DNA of 64,000 nt, from positions 16,226 to 80,225 of the forward strand of contig SZXV01000007.1 in NCBI GenBank assembly GCA_005862225.1, in the 5' to 3' direction. Of this stretch, positions 18,275-25,812 are shown in pieces. The notes beneath the pieces were generated by a model, which was not told the DNA's origin, did not search any database, and worked only from the letters and a program-made list of their open reading frames with translations. Each line of letters begins with the position of its first letter. The stretch's first letter is position 1. Source of the DNA: Chlorobium sp. (lineage in GTDB: Bacteria; Bacteroidota; Chlorobiia; Chlorobiales; Chlorobiaceae). The translations under genes were made by a program, and so were the position numbers.

Positions 18275-19477
18275 TTGGAGCAAAATACCTACAATCAATG
18301 CCCGGTCTGCGGCTATCCACTCTCTCACAACAGTGCGATATGCCCTCGGTGCGGAAACGACATTCTTGAAGATATATCCTCCTTTGACCAGCAATCCCAG
18401 GAACTTCACCATCAAAGCTTAGAGGGTAAAAAAGCAGCGTGGTATACCCGCTGCCTTACTGAAAAGCTTAATGTCAGCACAAACGATCTGATTCCTCCGT
18501 CAGGAGAGCACGCCCATCAGGAAAGTCCACGCCAGATATTCAATCGATCTGATGAAATTGACTACCTTCGCCGTGTCTCAAGAGCTGAACTGCTTCAGGA
18601 AAGTGGCGCACGAAAAAAGTGGTGGAACTCACTGACCTCTGACTGGAAAGAGGTGGTTAAAACAACCCTGAAAGTGCTCAAGGATCCATCAGATCAGGAG
18701 CTGCTTGACTTTTTTGAAACAACACATCTCCGGTGTGACAACCGCAGAATTCATAATCTTCTCCCTGTACGGGTTCTTGAAAAGCTCCAGCAACTCCGTT
18801 GCGATGAGTCCCCTGTCGAAGATCTCGAACCACTGCAGCACCTGAAGATGCTGCAACGCCTTTACGCATTTGACTGCGACTTTGCATCGCTCGAACCTCT
18901 GCGCAATATTACAAGCCTGAAGCTTCTCTGGATCTCAAGCACCCAGGTCAGCTCCCTTGAGCCGATCAGCCAGCTTTTCAAGCTTGAAGAGCTTTATTGC
19001 TCCGAAACCATGATCACCGACCTCTCTCCTCTGAAAGATCTCGTCAATCTTGAAAAACTGAGCTGTTACAAGACCGGCATCACCTCTCTTGAACCAATCG
19101 CTCATCTCGAAAATCTTATTGAGCTCGGCATAGACAATTCAAAGATTACTGATCTCACTCCGCTGGCGGGCCTCAACAGTCTCGAATATCTCCGCTGCAA
19201 CAAAACCGGCATCAGAAATATCGACGCATTAAGCGCTCTGACCGAACTTCGGGAGCTGAGTCTGGCAAATACCCGCCTTACCTCTATTGAGCCACTGGAG
19301 GAGCTTGTCAACCTTGAAGAACTTGATCTATCAAACACGCTCATCGAATCGATCGGCCCGATCATGAGCCTTCAGCATCTTGAAAAAATCCAACTCCCGG
19401 CCGACAGGATTCCAGAAGAAGAGATTGAACGCTTTCTTGAGCTTCACCCGGATTGCGAAGTAGATCTCAAAGCATAG
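18275..19477 (+). CDS. Double zinc-ribbon protein with leucine-rich repeats
   Basis: A 400-residue protein. A four-cysteine zinc ribbon (CPVCGYPLSHNSAICPRCG) occupies residues 9-27. A charged helical middle follows, then about nine leucine-rich repeats of 22 residues (LEELYCSETMITDLSPLKDL and similar) from about residue 175 to the end, resembling internalin-type repeats. No signal peptide, so it is probably cytosolic and a protein-binding scaffold. The start is uncertain: no ATG or GTG is available in frame near the ribbon, and TTG at 18275 is the best candidate. It is followed, about 180 bases on, by the caspase-like gene on the same strand. Confidence 0.65.
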   Translation: MEQNTYNQCPVCGYPLSHNSAICPRCGNDILEDISSFDQQSQELHHQSLEGKKAAWYTRCLTEKLNVSTNDLIPPSGEHAHQESPRQIFNRSDEIDYLRRVSRAELLQESGARKKWWNSLTSDWKEVVKTTLKVLKDPSDQELLDFFETTHLRCDNRRIHNLLPVRVLEKLQQLRCDESPVEDLEPLQHLKMLQRLYAFDCDFASLEPLRNITSLKLLWISSTQVSSLEPISQLFKLEELYCSETMITDLSPLKDLVNLEKLSCYKTGITSLEPIAHLENLIELGIDNSKITDLTPLAGLNSLEYLRCNKTGIRNIDALSALTELRELSLANTRLTSIEPLEELVNLEELDLSNTLIESIGPIMSLQHLEKIQLPADRIPEEEIERFLELHPDCEVDLKA

Positions 19478-19655
19478 ATTAAAACACACTGATTCTTCGT
19501 GTCGCTCACGTTTTTCCATTAGAAGATTTTGGCTTGAAGGACAGATTTACTATCATTACTTCAGGGTTTTTTCACGTCAACGAACACCGCAGAAGCAAAA
19601 AACCGAATTTAACCCTGCGGCTCTTTTCACAATATTAAATAACGGAGTAGTGCTC

Positions 19656-20510
19656 ATGGCAAAAAAAGCTTTTCTTGTCGGGGTCAATGATTATGCCCCA
19701 ATTGGCGCCGGAGGACCTGATCTGCGTGGATGCGTGAACGATGTTCAGGATATGGCAAATACACTTTCTGTTCTTGGGATTATCCCGGCAAACCCGACGA
19801 ACATGAAAATTCTTACCGATTCACGGGCAACCAGGGCTGCAATTATGGCCGGACTGAAGTGGTTGATCACAGGAGCACAGGCTGGCGACGTTTTGGTTTT
19901 TCACTACTCTGGCCACGGCTCACAAGTTGTGGATGTTGACGGCGACGAACCTGATGGAAAAGACGAAACCATTTGTCCGCACGACTTTGCAACCGCAGGC
20001 ATGATAAAAGATGATGATTTACGTGCCGTATTTTCAACGCTGCCAGCAGGGGTAAATTTGGACGTCATTCTCGATTCCTGCCATTCCGGCAGCGGCACCA
20101 GAGAGCTGTCTGCCCTCGCCGCAACACCCGAAGAGTTATCGGTCTCCTATCGCTTCGTTGAACCGCCCATTGATGTAAGCTTCTTCCTTGATTCCAATCC
20201 TTCACTCCCGGTCCGTGGTATACTCAAAAAGAAAAAGGGAGCGAAAGATGTAAGCCTGGCGCCAGGATTGAACCACGTCCTGTGGGCAGGATGCCGCGAT
20301 AACCAGACCTCAGCCGAAGCCTCAATTGGGGGCGTTTACCGGGGATTGTTCACCCTGAACTTCTGCAAAATTCTGAGAGCTGCGGGTGTCACCATCACAA
20401 GAAAAAACCTCGACATCCAGATTTGCAGAAATATTAAAGCTCTGGGTTATGCGCAGGTTCCACAACTTGAAGGCGTAGCAGCATCACTTGGTGAAAAAGT
20501 CTTTACCTGA
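19656..20510 (+). CDS. Caspase-family (peptidase C14, metacaspase-like) protease
   Basis: A 284-residue protein starting at the ATG at 19656 (GGAG at 19643-19646). The caspase fold is recognised from KKAFLVGVNDY at the first strand, the catalytic histidine in HYSGHGS (His87), the acidic DVDGDEPDGKDE loop, and the catalytic cysteine in DSCHSG (Cys142), all in the order of bacterial type I metacaspase-like proteins. No transmembrane or signal segment and no fused adaptor domain, so its activator must come in trans. It converges with ogt and lies close to the NACHT gene. Bacterial caspase homologues are often effectors of immune or cell-death systems, but that role here is inference. Confidence 0.85.
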   Translation: MAKKAFLVGVNDYAPIGAGGPDLRGCVNDVQDMANTLSVLGIIPANPTNMKILTDSRATRAAIMAGLKWLITGAQAGDVLVFHYSGHGSQVVDVDGDEPDGKDETICPHDFATAGMIKDDDLRAVFSTLPAGVNLDVILDSCHSGSGTRELSALAATPEELSVSYRFVEPPIDVSFFLDSNPSLPVRGILKKKKGAKDVSLAPGLNHVLWAGCRDNQTSAEASIGGVYRGLFTLNFCKILRAAGVTITRKNLDIQICRNIKALGYAQVPQLEGVAASLGEKVFT

Positions 20511-20563: not shown

Positions 20564-21025
20564 TTACACCTCCCGCTCAAGATCCAGCAACATCTTCTTC
20601 AATACCAAACCTCCACGATACCCGGTCAGCTTGCCATTGCTGCCGATTACCCTGTGGCATGGAATAAAAATCGGCAAAGGATTTCGATGATTTGCCATCC
20701 CCACCGCCCTGACCGCACGAGGATTTCCGATGGAAACCGCAACATCACGATAGCTTGCCGTCGTCCCGCAGGGTATTGTGGCGAGAAACTGCCAGACCGC
20801 CTGCATAAATGGAGTTCCCGCAGAAGCGAGCGGCAGTGAAAACGTTCTGAGATCACCCTCAAGGTACCAGTTCAACTGCCGGAAAGCCTCATGAAGCAAA
20901 GCCGTTTCTCCTTGTTCAACACCAACAGGGAGCGAGTCCTGCTCAAAATAGAGATTGGTTATGCACTCGTTATGTTCGGCTATGCCTACAGTGCCGATCA
21001 GGGTGGTTTGAATATGGAGCTTCAT
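20564..21025 (-). CDS. ogt: Methylated-DNA--protein-cysteine S-methyltransferase
   Basis: A 153-residue suicide DNA-repair protein that transfers alkyl groups from O6-alkylguanine to its own cysteine. The active-site motif IPCHRVIG places the acceptor Cys at residue 123. FMQAVWQFLATIPCGTTASY (helix-turn-helix region) and YRGGLVLKKMLL follow the normal order of the one-domain Ogt/MGT family. Its ATG shares bases with the stop codon of a 57-residue upstream frame (ATGA), so translation is coupled to that fragment. Confidence 0.9.
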   Translation of the reverse strand: MKLHIQTTLIGTVGIAEHNECITNLYFEQDSLPVGVEQGETALLHEAFRQLNWYLEGDLRTFSLPLASAGTPFMQAVWQFLATIPCGTTASYRDVAVSIGNPRAVRAVGMANHRNPLPIFIPCHRVIGSNGKLTGYRGGLVLKKMLLDLEREV

Positions 21026-21195
21026 TGTCTCTTCTGTTTACCGTCCTCAAGCATCCGCCCCACATAACTCTCTCCATCCTCCTCCTGAAACAGGATATTG
21101 CGCCGCTGCATCTCCGGCTTTAAATCGAGGTTAGACTGGTCGAGCCGAAACAGCTCAATCAACAGGGTCTTCAGCTTGTCATAGTTCCGGGTCAT
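21022..21195 (-). CDS. 57-residue frame resembling the N-terminus of type III-like DNA methyltransferases
   Basis: ATG at 21195, stop overlapping the ogt start. The protein begins MTRNYDKLKTLLIELFRLDQ, which closely resembles the first helices of large adenine methyltransferases of type III restriction-modification systems (NYxKLKxLLxELFQLDQADLDFGIYR). The continuing family sequence is lost after SNLDLKPEMQ, so this is probably a truncated remnant kept as a leader for ogt. It has no catalytic motif. It is below usual gene-finder limits and could be unexpressed. Confidence 0.4.
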   Translation of the reverse strand: MTRNYDKLKTLLIELFRLDQSNLDLKPEMQRRNILFQEEDGESYVGRMLEDGKQKRQ

Positions 21196-21343
21196 AACAT
21201 ATTTTCTGCTTTGTTCTCCCCTGTTGGGAGATTATTTTACGGCACATCGGGTGGTAAAAAAATTTTCCAGCCTCCCAATGTCAGTTTTTCCTGGTCGAGT
21301 GAGTTTCTTTTTTCAGGGTTCCAGATATCAGGGGATCAGATTT

Positions 21344-24300
21344 TCAGGAAGAGGGACTGGAACGCACCACTCGAATACCCACAACGCTGCCCCCGAAGCC
21401 CGGGTTGCAGTAGTAGTCCCGGGAGGAGCAGCGCAGGGCATCAGCATTACTGCTATAATACGATCCGCCCCGTTGTGAACGCCAGTCTTCACCTTTTTTA
21501 TACAAATCCTCCGTCCACTCCCACACATTGCCCGCCATATCATGTAACCCTTCTGGTGTAGCGCCTTCAGGGTAACGACCTGTCGGTGTTGTGGAACCCT
21601 CATTTTGATTATAATTGGCAAGTGTTGGCGAGGGCTCTTTATCGCCCCACGGATACAGTCTGCTCTCTTTTCCACCTGCGGCATATTCCCACTCTTTTTC
21701 AGTTGGCAGACGATACAGATTGGTCTTTGCGCTATCACTCTCCAGCAATGAGAGCCACAGGCAATATGCCCGGGCGGCATACCAGGTTGGACGAAGCACC
21801 GGCTGATCATCCTTGTTAAACTGTTTGTCATCATCAAAAGGAGAACGAAATCGTGTTGCCAGCGATATTTCTTTCTTTATAAAGTCGCTGAAGCCCTTGA
21901 TACTCTCAGCAAGGGCACGCAGGCTTTTTTTGTAAGTTTCAAACGGCAGTATGGCGGAATAACCGGCCTCTTTTGAATCCAGATAGTTGATAAACTGACG
22001 GTAGTGCTTGTTGGTCACCGTGTATTTTGCAACGTAGATATCATCCACTGTTTCCTGCTTTTTCGTCAATGAGGAGGTGAAGGTTCCCCCCTTGATAAGA
22101 ATATAGTGAGCACCCAACTTGTCCATTATGATCGAGGCATTTGCTCCACAACTCTCACGATTGCTGACTCCACCTGGCCGCTCTGCAACAGTCACAATAT
22201 CACATGCAACATCCAGCGCTTCGGTTTTTTTCTCAAAGGGAGCATCAAGAAACTTTCGAACAGCATCGAGGGCATCCTGATTGCCGATGGCTTTCAGGCA
22301 TTGCATAATGTAGCGCTGCCGGTTTGTTGTGGTCGCCGAATCAAGCAACTTCTTCTGAAATGCATCCGTCTTTGTCTGCCGTGCCTCTTTGATAAGCGTG
22401 ACCAGTAAATCCTGCTGCTTTTGATTCAACGTGGCGCTGACCTCTGTATCGAACAGCTTCCCCATAAAGGCATCAAAGGCGTTGGCATCAACCTCGGCGA
22501 TATAAAAACGGAGGGGCTCTTCCCACCAGTCTTTGCCGAAATTGCTCACCAGCTTGTCGAGATGGCCCGTGCTGCTGTGCATTTTTTTCTCAAGCTGCAA
22601 GCCTGCCATGTACTCACGGAACGATTTGTGCCGGAACCGATACTCCTTATCACCATAGGCCACCAGTAAAGCCGCGCGATCAATCAGGTTCTCACAGAAC
22701 TTCTCGACTGAAGGGGGATCATGAAGCGTTTTCAGGTGTTTCTGCATCTCCGCCTGCATCAGCGCCTTGTCAGCCTCATCCTTTTCGAGATCCTCCTGCA
22801 TCCAGAGCGATACCGGTGTCAGGACTCGCCGGGCATCTTCAGCGCCGAGCAGGGGATAGATCTCTTTTTGGCGGTCGCGATAGTCAAGAATATAGTTCAC
22901 TGCGGCATTGTATAACTCTGAACGGGTTTTCGGCAGGTACTGGCGATCTTTCCAGAGAATCGCCATAATCTGCAACAGCATGGGAACTGCGGCCAACATG
23001 CGCAAACTCTGGTTCTCTTCCCTCTCCAGAAACTCAATAATGGTAGCGGCTTTCGTTGCGGCTGTTTTTGCCTGCTCCTCTCTCCACTCCTGAAGCGTTT
23101 TTGTTGAAGGACGAAGTTCACGGCACAAGACCGAGCTGAACCACTTCTCCAGAAACTCTTTCTGCTGATCCGGTGAAAAATCCATGATATCAGCACGCAC
23201 ATGGCGGGATCGAAGCTCTATCCCGTCCCCTTTCCGGTAGCCGGTATAACGGGAGGTGACCACCACCTTTGCTTTTTCAAAACCGCTGACAATCCGGTCA
23301 ATCCAGTCGCAAGCCTTGATGCGCTGCTGCGGGTCGCTGATTTCGTCAAGGCCATCAAGCAGAAGGAGGGTTTGACGGTTATGCAGCCACTCAAAGAAAA
23401 CAGTTTCCGCTATACCAAGAGAGTGCTTTTCACTCCATGCAAAGAGGTTGGCTGAAAGGGTATCAATATCTGCGCCTTTTTTGACCAGCTCGCGCAAGGG
23501 GAGATAAAAAACCAGAACAGGCTCCTTGAACCCAAGTGTGGTGTAGTGCTCATTTTCGAGGCATGAAAGAGCATAGTGTTTGAGCAGGGTTGTTTTGCCG
23601 GAACCGGGATCGCCGATAACCAGCAGGAGAGGACAGGTTTCAAAGACAAGGCTGACCACCTCTACAGGGTTACGAATCCGCTCATCCTGTTGCGATTCGT
23701 CACTGACTTTAGGGCTCCACCGCATATCGCTGCGCCAGGTATCGGAAATACGCAGAGAGACAAAAGTGTCGGTCAGGGTTACCGGAATGTTCTCAAGCGC
23801 ATGAGTGCCCAGCAGGCTGATGGTGCCAAGTTCGGTTTTGAGCGCCCCCTGATAACGGCGCAACTCTTCGGCATTGTTTGACAGCTCCGCAGTCGGGTGA
23901 GTTATATCAACGGAAAGAATATCGGCGATGGCAATCCGAACCTTTTCGCGAACAATGGTTTTGAGATGCTCACTATCCTCATAAAGCGGGCAGGGTGTTA
24001 CTGAAGATGAGTCGGGGTTTGTCCACTCCGTCGTCAGCTCTTCCTGGCGCTCCAGTAATGTCGTCCAATCGCGTGCCGCCTGCAGTTTTGCCTGGGCATT
24101 TGGAAACTTTGCCTGAAGTGGAGATGTCTCAGGGAAAAACGCAAAAACATGGGACTGTACTGCTTTGCTCCCCTTTCTGGCCTTCTCAAGCTCTTGCCAG
24201 GTCACCTTTCCAACCCGCTCCCTGAAAACAAAAATGGCTATCTGTGCTTTGTCAAGCGCGGGAGTAACTGCCCTCTCCTGGCCTCCGGGTAGCGCCAGAG

Positions 24301-24517
24301 CATCGAGTGTCCACTCCCACAGCCTGAGACGCTTGAAAATTGAACGATGACCGTTAGATTTCAGTAGTAGCCGGAAGTCCTTTTCGATCTCCGATTGCAG
24401 CTCAAGAATGGCATTTGCTTCCGCAGAAGCGTCGTCGCTGTGCCCGATGAAAATCAGCAGCTCATCGGGCGGGAATTCATGGGATTCAGGCAACATGAAT
24501 TTGGTATCTGATTGCAT
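21344..24517 (-). CDS. NACHT (STAND) ATPase with C-terminal FGE-sulfatase/C-type-lectin-fold domain, DGR-like target
   Basis: A 1057-residue protein. Residues about 18-135 form an N-terminal module (LLIFIGHSDDAS ... IAIFVFRERVGKVTWQELEK) reminiscent of TIR-like/DUF4062 sensor or effector domains. The NACHT ATPase follows, with P-loop VIGDPGSGKTT near residue 305 and Walker B LLLLDGLDEIS near 385. A helical region spans to about 780. Then comes an FGE-sulfatase domain (about 790-1057: ILIKGGTFTSS, LPTEKEWEYAAGG, GLHDMAGNVWEWTEDLY, QRGGSYYSS). The last 45 residues match the layout of DGR variable regions: RGGS, a variable block, LRC, SR, a second variable block, then GIRVVRSS. Such STAND proteins typically sense a ligand, oligomerise and trigger an effector. 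The cellular role here is inferred. Confidence 0.85.
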   Translation of the reverse strand: MQSDTKFMLPESHEFPPDELLIFIGHSDDASAEANAILELQSEIEKDFRLLLKSNGHRSIFKRLRLWEWTLDALALPGGQERAVTPALDKAQIAIFVFRERVGKVTWQELEKARKGSKAVQSHVFAFFPETSPLQAKFPNAQAKLQAARDWTTLLERQEELTTEWTNPDSSSVTPCPLYEDSEHLKTIVREKVRIAIADILSVDITHPTAELSNNAEELRRYQGALKTELGTISLLGTHALENIPVTLTDTFVSLRISDTWRSDMRWSPKVSDESQQDERIRNPVEVVSLVFETCPLLLVIGDPGSGKTTLLKHYALSCLENEHYTTLGFKEPVLVFYLPLRELVKKGADIDTLSANLFAWSEKHSLGIAETVFFEWLHNRQTLLLLDGLDEISDPQQRIKACDWIDRIVSGFEKAKVVVTSRYTGYRKGDGIELRSRHVRADIMDFSPDQQKEFLEKWFSSVLCRELRPSTKTLQEWREEQAKTAATKAATIIEFLEREENQSLRMLAAVPMLLQIMAILWKDRQYLPKTRSELYNAAVNYILDYRDRQKEIYPLLGAEDARRVLTPVSLWMQEDLEKDEADKALMQAEMQKHLKTLHDPPSVEKFCENLIDRAALLVAYGDKEYRFRHKSFREYMAGLQLEKKMHSSTGHLDKLVSNFGKDWWEEPLRFYIAEVDANAFDAFMGKLFDTEVSATLNQKQQDLLVTLIKEARQTKTDAFQKKLLDSATTTNRQRYIMQCLKAIGNQDALDAVRKFLDAPFEKKTEALDVACDIVTVAERPGGVSNRESCGANASIIMDKLGAHYILIKGGTFTSSLTKKQETVDDIYVAKYTVTNKHYRQFINYLDSKEAGYSAILPFETYKKSLRALAESIKGFSDFIKKEISLATRFRSPFDDDKQFNKDDQPVLRPTWYAARAYCLWLSLLESDSAKTNLYRLPTEKEWEYAAGGKESRLYPWGDKEPSPTLANYNQNEGSTTPTGRYPEGATPEGLHDMAGNVWEWTEDLYKKGEDWRSQRGGSYYSSNADALRCSSRDYYCNPGFGGSVVGIRVVRSSPSS
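21347..21480 (-). repeat. Candidate DGR variable region at the 3' end of the NACHT-FGE gene
   Basis: The region encodes the C-terminus of the lectin-fold domain. All eight codons between the RGGS and ALRC motifs, except the alanine before LRC, belong to a block ending uniformly in C or T. The first five codons after the SR pair also end in C or T, as expected when AAC/AAT codons of a template are mutagenised at adenines. The conserved frame RGGS/LRC/SR/GIRVVRS matches known FGE-type DGR targets. Downstream sequence rich in CTGA and CCCTG repeats (21300-21343, minus strand) is where an IMH-like element would lie. No template repeat or reverse transcriptase is in the window. Confidence 0.5.
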
Positions 24518-24624: not shown

Positions 24625-25812
24625 TCATACTGCATCAATATCAGGAATAACCCTACTCATAAATTCGTCGAAAAGAGGCACTGTGAAGGCCATCACACCA
24701 TGCGAGGGACTGTAGATCATTCCTTTTTTGATGAGCCCTGAACGCACGGAGCTGAGCGCTGTAATTTCAACACCAAGCGCATTGGCAATTTCAGCGGTAC
24801 GATAGGGGCCTGGCCCCAACACTGCCATTGCGCGCAGAAATGTTTTTTCGCGGTCGGGAAGACGGTTAAAGCGCACCCGAAAGAAATTTTCATCCAGACG
24901 GTTGATGACAAGCTTGGTTGTTTTCTCGACAACCGACAAGGTAATGGGTGAACTTTCTGCCTGGTTCCACACCTGATACCCCCACTCCTGAAGAAAATAG
25001 GGATAGCCTTTGGTCAGGCGGAATATTTCGTGGAGGGCTTCAGCGTCAAATGAGACTTCGGCCTCTGCAACTGGTTCCTGAAGTGCTTTGGCGGCATCCT
25101 GCTCATTGAGCGCACCGATGTCGGGAAAATTAAAGAGCCGCTCTGCATAGGACTTTGCCTCACCGGCAAGCCCCGGCAGAATTGGCAGACCTGCGGCAAC
25201 CAGCACAACGGGCAGTTGGCGCTGCTGCATTTTGTGCATGGCCATAATGATGGCATTCAGTTCTGATGAAGAGAGGTACTGAATTTCGTCAATCAGAATG
25301 GCCACAGCGCTCTTGCGCTCCTCGGCCGCTTCACCCACAGCAACAAACAGGCTCGAAAGATCGACCTCCAGGTCTCCACTGTCAGCACTCCCCTTTTCAG
25401 GATCAATATCCAGACCAATCTCAACATCGCCCAGCGATACCTTTACGCCTCCAATGAAGCTTTTCAGCACAGCAAGAGCCCTGCGAACCTTCTCCCCACC
25501 GCCTGCAAGCCTGTCCAAATCGAAAAGAAGCTTGCGCAACTGCGGCACAAGGAGCAACACCAATGACTTGCTCTCCTGCGCTTCAAGAAAAAGAGTACGA
25601 TATCCGTCATGCAGAGCCATCCGCTCCATTTCATTCAGGAGAACTGTTTTGCCTACACCACGCAGTCCTGTCATCATCATGCTCTTTTCGGATCGTTTCA
25701 GGCGCACCCGTCCGAAAAGCACATTGGCAAGCTCCAGAATGGCATCACGTCCTGCCAGTTCGGGAGGAGGAGAGCCAGCGCCGGGAGAGAAGGGATTTCT
25801 GATATTGTCCAT
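24625..25812 (-). CDS. AAA+ ATPase (AAA_16/ORC-like) with C-terminal winged helix
   Basis: A 395-residue protein. RNPFSPGAGSPPPELAGRD at the start is typical of archaeal-type AAA ATPases of the ORC/Cdc6-like group. P-loop TGLRGVGKTVLL is near residue 50, Walker B AILIDEIQYLS near 172, and a sensor region with VLVAAGLPILPGL near 203. A helical lid (LTKGYPYFLQEWG) and a C-terminal winged-helix segment (TAEIANALGVEITALSSVRS) follow. It lies 107 bases upstream of the NACHT gene on the same strand and may be co-transcribed with it. A role in replication seems unlikely; mobile or defence association is more probable. Confidence 0.8.
   Translation of the reverse strand: MDNIRNPFSPGAGSPPPELAGRDAILELANVLFGRVRLKRSEKSMMMTGLRGVGKTVLLNEMERMALHDGYRTLFLEAQESKSLVLLLVPQLRKLLFDLDRLAGGGEKVRRALAVLKSFIGGVKVSLGDVEIGLDIDPEKGSADSGDLEVDLSSLFVAVGEAAEERKSAVAILIDEIQYLSSSELNAIIMAMHKMQQRQLPVVLVAAGLPILPGLAGEAKSYAERLFNFPDIGALNEQDAAKALQEPVAEAEVSFDAEALHEIFRLTKGYPYFLQEWGYQVWNQAESSPITLSVVEKTTKLVINRLDENFFRVRFNRLPDREKTFLRAMAVLGPGPYRTAEIANALGVEITALSSVRSGLIKKGMIYSPSHGVMAFTVPLFDEFMSRVIPDIDAV

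Follow-up and report, generated by a model that had tools for sequence, protein, structure and literature searches.

A NACHT-FGE gene of Chlorobium sp. as a likely former DGR target without a fitting template in its own assembly

Introduction

According to the accessible part of Dore et al., NACHT/nSTAND-CLec targets of multicellular bacteria are diversified by DGRs, and the Chlorobi are listed among the hosts; antigen sensing is proposed there for these targets and is stated as still to be tested (Dore et al. 2024, PMC10907252). Multi-VR DGRs, with four and two variable regions (VRs), are described from the green sulfur bacteria Pelodictyon and Chlorobium in the available text of Schillinger et al., where changes at adenines without other changes are given as the hallmark of diversification that is still going on (Schillinger et al. 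2012, PMC3521204). A Nostoc PCC 7120 paralogue, all3226, retains remnant homology between template repeat (TR) and VR and has no reverse transcriptase (RT) nearby; from this gene, the part of the source at hand suggests removal of the diversifier after selection of a good variant (Vallota-Eastman et al. 2020, PMC7517822). NACHT-lectin proteins diversified by DGRs, degenerate DGR loci and an orphan VR have all been published already. The gene presented here, located in a 64,000-nucleotide stretch of a Chlorobium sp. contig (SZXV01000007.1; the window), adds one case with unusually clear internal controls.

Results

The coordinates of the gene, its domains and the related features are collected in Table 1. 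The reading frame is intact: the translation of 21344-24517 contains no internal stop. A preliminary description of this DNA had proposed a fusion of a STAND/NACHT ATPase to an FGE-type lectin domain, and this is borne out by Pfam, as both domains score above the cut-offs used and the Walker A and B motifs are present. Assignment of the FGE part to the formylglycine-generating-enzyme family is by domain homology only. The profile of the lectin domain matches the DGR variable protein TvpA of Treponema denticola (PDB 2y3c, E 3.5e-17): both have an FGE-type C-type-lectin variable domain, but, to our knowledge, TvpA has no NACHT domain. In Foldseek, the full model matches NLRP3 best; this full-length search was dominated by the NACHT part. 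The N-terminal domain has no Pfam match; its top structural matches are plant TIR domains (model mean pLDDT 65), and the conserved glutamate E109 in 'WQEL' presumably sits at the TIR catalytic place. PADLOC returned weak matches only, for the NACHT part. From this domain architecture, the sensor may be coupled to a death or signalling response.

Table 1. Positions of the NACHT-FGE gene, its parts and neighbours, and of the DGR components of the same genome.
Feature	Position	Strand	Description or evidence
NACHT-FGE CDS	21344..24517	minus	1057 aa: TIR-like N-terminus / NACHT ATPase / helical region / FGE C-type-lectin domain with VR
N-terminal domain, residues 17-204, TIR-like Rossmann fold	23906..24469	minus	fold inference
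NACHT domain, residues 298-461, motifs GDPGSGKTT and LLLLDGLDE	23135..23626	minus	PF05729, 65.4 bits (curated Pfam cut-off 26.7 bits)
FGE-sulfatase / C-type-lectin domain, residues 805-1052	21362..22105	minus	PF03781, 135.8 bits (Pfam cut-off 23.3 bits)
Variable region RGGS...RSS, residues 1016-1054	21356..21472	minus	alignment to relatives' TR
Variable block 1, YYSSN, residues 1020-1024	21446..21460	minus	alignment to TR and orthologue comparison
Variable block 2, DYYCNPGFGGSV, residues 1034-1045	21383..21418	minus	alignment to TR and orthologue comparison
Conserved 3' flank, common to relatives' target genes	21256..21343	minus	homology in most relatives stops at 21256
7-nt inverted repeat GTTCCAG/CTGGAAC, arms 32 nt apart, across VR 3' end	21318..21363	.	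also in L055
57-aa ORF, deletion scar: DNA-methylase-type gene start fused to ResIII-type gene end	21022..21195	minus	locus comparison
AAA_16 ATPase, directly upstream of NACHT-FGE gene	24625..25812	minus	arrangement repeated in G043, G057, G045
DGR1 RT	L013:7510-8547		beside TR and targets
DGR1 Avd	L013:6771-7106		NF033474, 113.2 bits (NCBIfam equivalog cut-off 80)
DGR2 RT	L014:7376-8437		beside TR and targets

The tail of the protein has the layout of a DGR target, as had been described: RGGS, a variable block, LRCSSR, a second variable block and VGIRVVRSS. The VR thus named lies at the 3' end of the gene, in the part encoding a ligand-binding (C-type-lectin/FGE) domain, and the variable codons, said to end almost uniformly in C or T, do so in 14 of 15 cases within the aligned core. 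Compared with the TR of relatives, the VR core carries changes at 18 of 31 adenines and at 7 of 65 other bases, plus one inserted codon. Template adenines make up 31 of the 96 sites and take 18 of the 25 mismatches (hypergeometric P 2e-6). The bias is sharpest at codon positions 1 and 2, where template adenines take 17 of 18 mismatches (P about 5e-7). At position 3, they take one of seven. Six of the seven non-adenine mismatches are third-position changes, silent given the other changes. Control comparisons of one TR with another have no adenine bias (e.g., 3/29 adenines vs. 23/76 other bases). These mismatches confirm that the tail is a DGR-type VR, and the window tail was very likely diversified by a DGR in the past. 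The inverted repeat across the 3' end of the VR is possibly a target-recognition element; DNA folding gave no strong DNA hairpin 3' of the VR (z -0.84).

NACHT-FGE genes are numerous in the genus, with matches in 38 of 65 genomes at E 1e-30, and the gene could on that ground be an FGE paralogue that never was a DGR target, its lectin loops having diverged by ordinary positive selection. The adenine bias at the first two codon positions speaks against this, as does the fact that the TR in question adjoins Avd and RT genes in the relatives, and we hold such an origin to be extremely improbable, refuted by the bias unless the agreement with the relatives' TR arose by coincidence.

The RVT_1 profile has three matches in the genome. 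Two are RTs of DGRs; the third, on contig C12, is a group II intron-like fragment (236.6 bits, cut-off 300). The genome-wide search suggested earlier for a DGR-type RT with Avd thus yields two such RTs, one Avd (examined for DGR1 alone of the two DGRs) and two TRs. A DGR RT and an Avd are available in the genome, though they serve TRs other than that of the window gene. DGR1 (contig C4) is organized as target A, Avd, TR1, RT and target B. The VRs of targets A and B differ from TR1 at 16 and 14 of 29 adenines, respectively, and at none of the 76 other bases.

On the same contig, a 1932-aa open frame ends in a NACHT-FGE part (L096:8162-13960; G000:C4 about 606-612 kb). Its VR differs from TR1 at 18 of 30 adenines and 0 of 95 other bases; judged by this fit, it is likely a remote (trans) target of DGR1, about 75 kb from the template. 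DGR2 (L014:3618-10080; G000:C4 about 265-272 kb) has two separate targets, one a NACHT-FGE protein and the other a 430-aa FGE protein lacking NACHT; in their VRs, template adenines account for 13 of 16 mismatches in one case and 18 of 19 in the other. A 153-aa ORF sits between a DGR2 target and the RT, and we take it that it may be another type of DGR accessory protein. All five VRs of the two DGRs agree with their own TR at nearly every non-adenine base.

The window tail, in comparison, has mismatches to TR1 at 17 of 29 adenines and 18 of 76 other bases; against TR2, 31 of 71 non-adenine bases are changed. It was accordingly rejected as a trans target of either DGR. Searching the whole assembly by similarity with the window tail recovered the tail, TR1 and the targets of DGR1; everything else was a short, weak match. 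Six of the loci with these short matches were inspected (L004-L009) and have no AAC-rich repeat. With a relative's TR, no fitting template was found either, the remaining matches again being short and weak. In an ungapped scan, 12 stretches of the genome were examined for a sequence whose departures from the window VR are confined to its own adenines; the best place had 27 violations in 99 bases, and TR1 falls among the chance places. The anticipated template repeat, matching the tail except at adenines, is therefore not found in the assembly: no TR there confines the VR mismatches to its adenines. A search for hidden Avd or RT remnants in the window found no trace.

Tails resembling that of the window protein are present in several of the 65 genus genomes searched, and a TR of the family that fits the window VR in eight. 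The gene order in G063, G041, G043 and G062 is NACHT-FGE, Avd, TR, RT, with Avd at 76-78% to Avd1 and RT at 75-78% to RT1. Two of these genomes, G063 and G043, have the cassette in one stretch with counterparts of the AAA_16 ATPase and PDDEXK neighbours of the window gene. There, the counterparts of positions 21256 and 21121 lie about 3.85 kb apart, with Avd, TR, RT and a PDDEXK gene between them; in the window, the two positions are separated by 135 bp matching the start of a DNA-methylase-type gene. This difference fits the loss of a cassette, but also a mosaic rearrangement.

Since the locus is mosaic, a target may have been transferred into a place that never held a DGR, with no cassette loss here. 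The mosaic 3' flanks and the existence of solo VR 3' ends agree with such a recombination, and the same flank abuts the start of the methylase-type gene, which follows NACHT-FGE genes in G062, G057, G056 and G033. Nevertheless, the neighbours are about as diverged from G063 as the gene itself (amino-acid identity of 93% for the AAA_16 ATPase, 85% for the PDDEXK protein and 85% for the NACHT-FGE protein), and the cassette shares its stretch with these very neighbours. We regard the transfer as rather unlikely.

Several other features were observed at these loci. Fuller versions of the methylase/DUF1016/ResIII operon occur in L061 and L063. Solo NACHT-FGE 3' ends, consisting of the VR end and about 90 nt of flank, are found at L054:6199-6318, L060:9207-9335 and L058:10169-10298; the first two resemble remains of deleted targets, and the last is truncated by the contig end. 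In G058 (C97 and C113), a DGR has an RT frame with one TGA, Avd/RT fragments (L099) and VRs with 2-3 non-adenine changes: perhaps a cassette in the process of decay. A caspase-family gene (19650-20510) and a leucine-rich-repeat gene (18275-19477) lie a few kb from the window receptor gene; the caspase protein has no tblastn match above 60 bits in 18 loci.

The window VR ranks first of 25 cores in non-adenine changes (7/65); the next two have five and four, and the other 22 have 0-2. These cores were drawn from the fetched loci with a pattern that omits strongly drifted VRs because it demands an intact LRCSSR stretch. Among 46 VRs of a broader set picked by hand (TRs, contig-end pieces, duplicates, TR1-type repeats and stretch L150 omitted), the window VR is fifth. 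Drift in this set does not differ significantly between the 15 VRs of TR-less genomes, including the window, and the 31 of TR-bearing ones (Mann-Whitney P 0.075). At least five non-adenine mismatches are seen in 5/15 and 0/31, respectively (Fisher P 0.002, with a cut picked after seeing the data). Some of the drifted VRs may come from different TR lineages. Across the genus, the association between a missing TR and a drifted VR is weak, a point against a frozen sensor.

In a longer alignment, 9 of 69 non-adenine bases differ between the window VR and the TR (13%). The gene before the tail has the same nucleotide divergence, 13.0%, from its G063 orthologue, so that the window VR now seems to evolve as coding DNA ordinarily does when the protein is under constraint. 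The orthologue tails of G063 and G062, in comparison with the TRs of their own genomes (about 13 kb and about 8 kb away), differ at 0/62 non-adenine bases in a short core and at 1/65 and 2/65 in a longer one. The G045 orthologue (L097:320-420; G045:C129) has 16/62 non-adenine changes, and the same gene has possibly been frozen a second time there; three other VRs of G045 fit a relative's TR perfectly.

Could the window gene still be an active target? Its TR could sit in an assembly gap or an unassembled copy, with the Avd and RT of DGR1 acting in trans. The fit of TR1 to its remote target would be a precedent, and 8 of the 15 VRs from genomes in which no TR was found agree perfectly with the TR of a relative, which suggests that assemblies may miss templates. 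The assembly is, however, 99.96% complete in 13 contigs, with the gene mid-contig, one of only three RVT_1 matches is group II intron-like, and the seven non-adenine mismatches, mostly silent, stand against 0-2 in 22 of the 24 relatives' VR cores. Present activity therefore appears improbable.

Variation was compared over all pairs of seven close orthologues, namely the window protein and six others at 80-88% identity to it (the seven closest of 120 listed homologues; P0006 was omitted because its tail is the same as that of P0005). At the 16 TR-adenine codons, 89 of 324 residues are identical (27%); the figures are 393 of 483 for the fixed part of the tail, and 18126 of 21183 (86%) for the remainder of the protein. 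The comparison of tails among relatives that had been called for accordingly reveals hypervariability at the TR-adenine codons, at the level of species orthologues with one genome per species. Another protein, P0034, has a tail identical to that of the G063 orthologue but a different body, through gene conversion between targets or as an assembly chimera.

Discussion

The adenine bias against the relatives' TR, together with the lack of a matching template in the own assembly, makes the window NACHT-FGE gene a likely former DGR target, and its sensor face is now likely frozen. Within its own assembly, where no fitting template was found, the gene is an orphan, and it is probably frozen. The idea of a retargetable sensor put forward in the preliminary description holds for the lineage, through the hypervariability of the orthologues and the adenine bias; for present retargeting of the window gene itself, the missing TR and the non-adenine drift argue against it. 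The non-adenine changes could also have arisen in the TR before it was lost.

In the ancestor, Avd and a DGR RT would have copied a TR of the relatives' family with errors at adenines. The mutated copy would have been written into the 3' end of the NACHT-FGE gene, so that as many as 16 residues of the lectin face were altered. TR, Avd and RT would then have been lost from the locus in the window lineage, a loss being preferred here to their never having been present. Thereafter, the VR would have undergone ordinary, mostly silent drift, with the reading frame staying intact. In the scheme of NLR biology, a sensing part, a NACHT switch and an effector domain are combined. By its architecture, the window protein would work as a TIR-NACHT (NLR-type) receptor: the lectin face would bind one fixed ligand, the NACHT ATPase would oligomerise and the TIR-like domain would serve as the effector. 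A role in defence may be supposed.

The window genome shares with the targets of Dore et al. the NACHT domain with a C-terminal FGE/CLec VR and several DGR classes per genome, and with their systems the remote targets and degenerate loci, as far as the accessible text covers them (PMC10907252). One VR of their DGR1 is likewise described there as not diversified, yet it fits its TR at all non-adenine sites, whereas the window VR has drifted at silent sites and fits no TR of its own genome (PMC10907252). By the hallmark given in the available part of Schillinger et al. (PMC3521204), the window VR fails and the three VRs of DGR1 in the window genome pass. The all3226 gene, as presented in the portion of that article at hand, is cyanobacterial; the freeze of the window gene is measured against the TR of relatives and against orthologues (PMC7517822).

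A selective origin is a tentative and rather unlikely idea: selection may have fixed a hypermutated receptor, a useful lectin face having been found and the loss of the template then favoured. The result would be an innate, germline-like NLR with one specificity, beside sister receptors in the same cell that still hypermutate, some in cis and some in trans. A single genome holds three states of one receptor family, with the template nearby, about 75 kb off, or missing. The fate of a hypermutated receptor after the departure of its mutator can thereby be tested directly: silent VR positions would be a clock that runs only once the template is gone.
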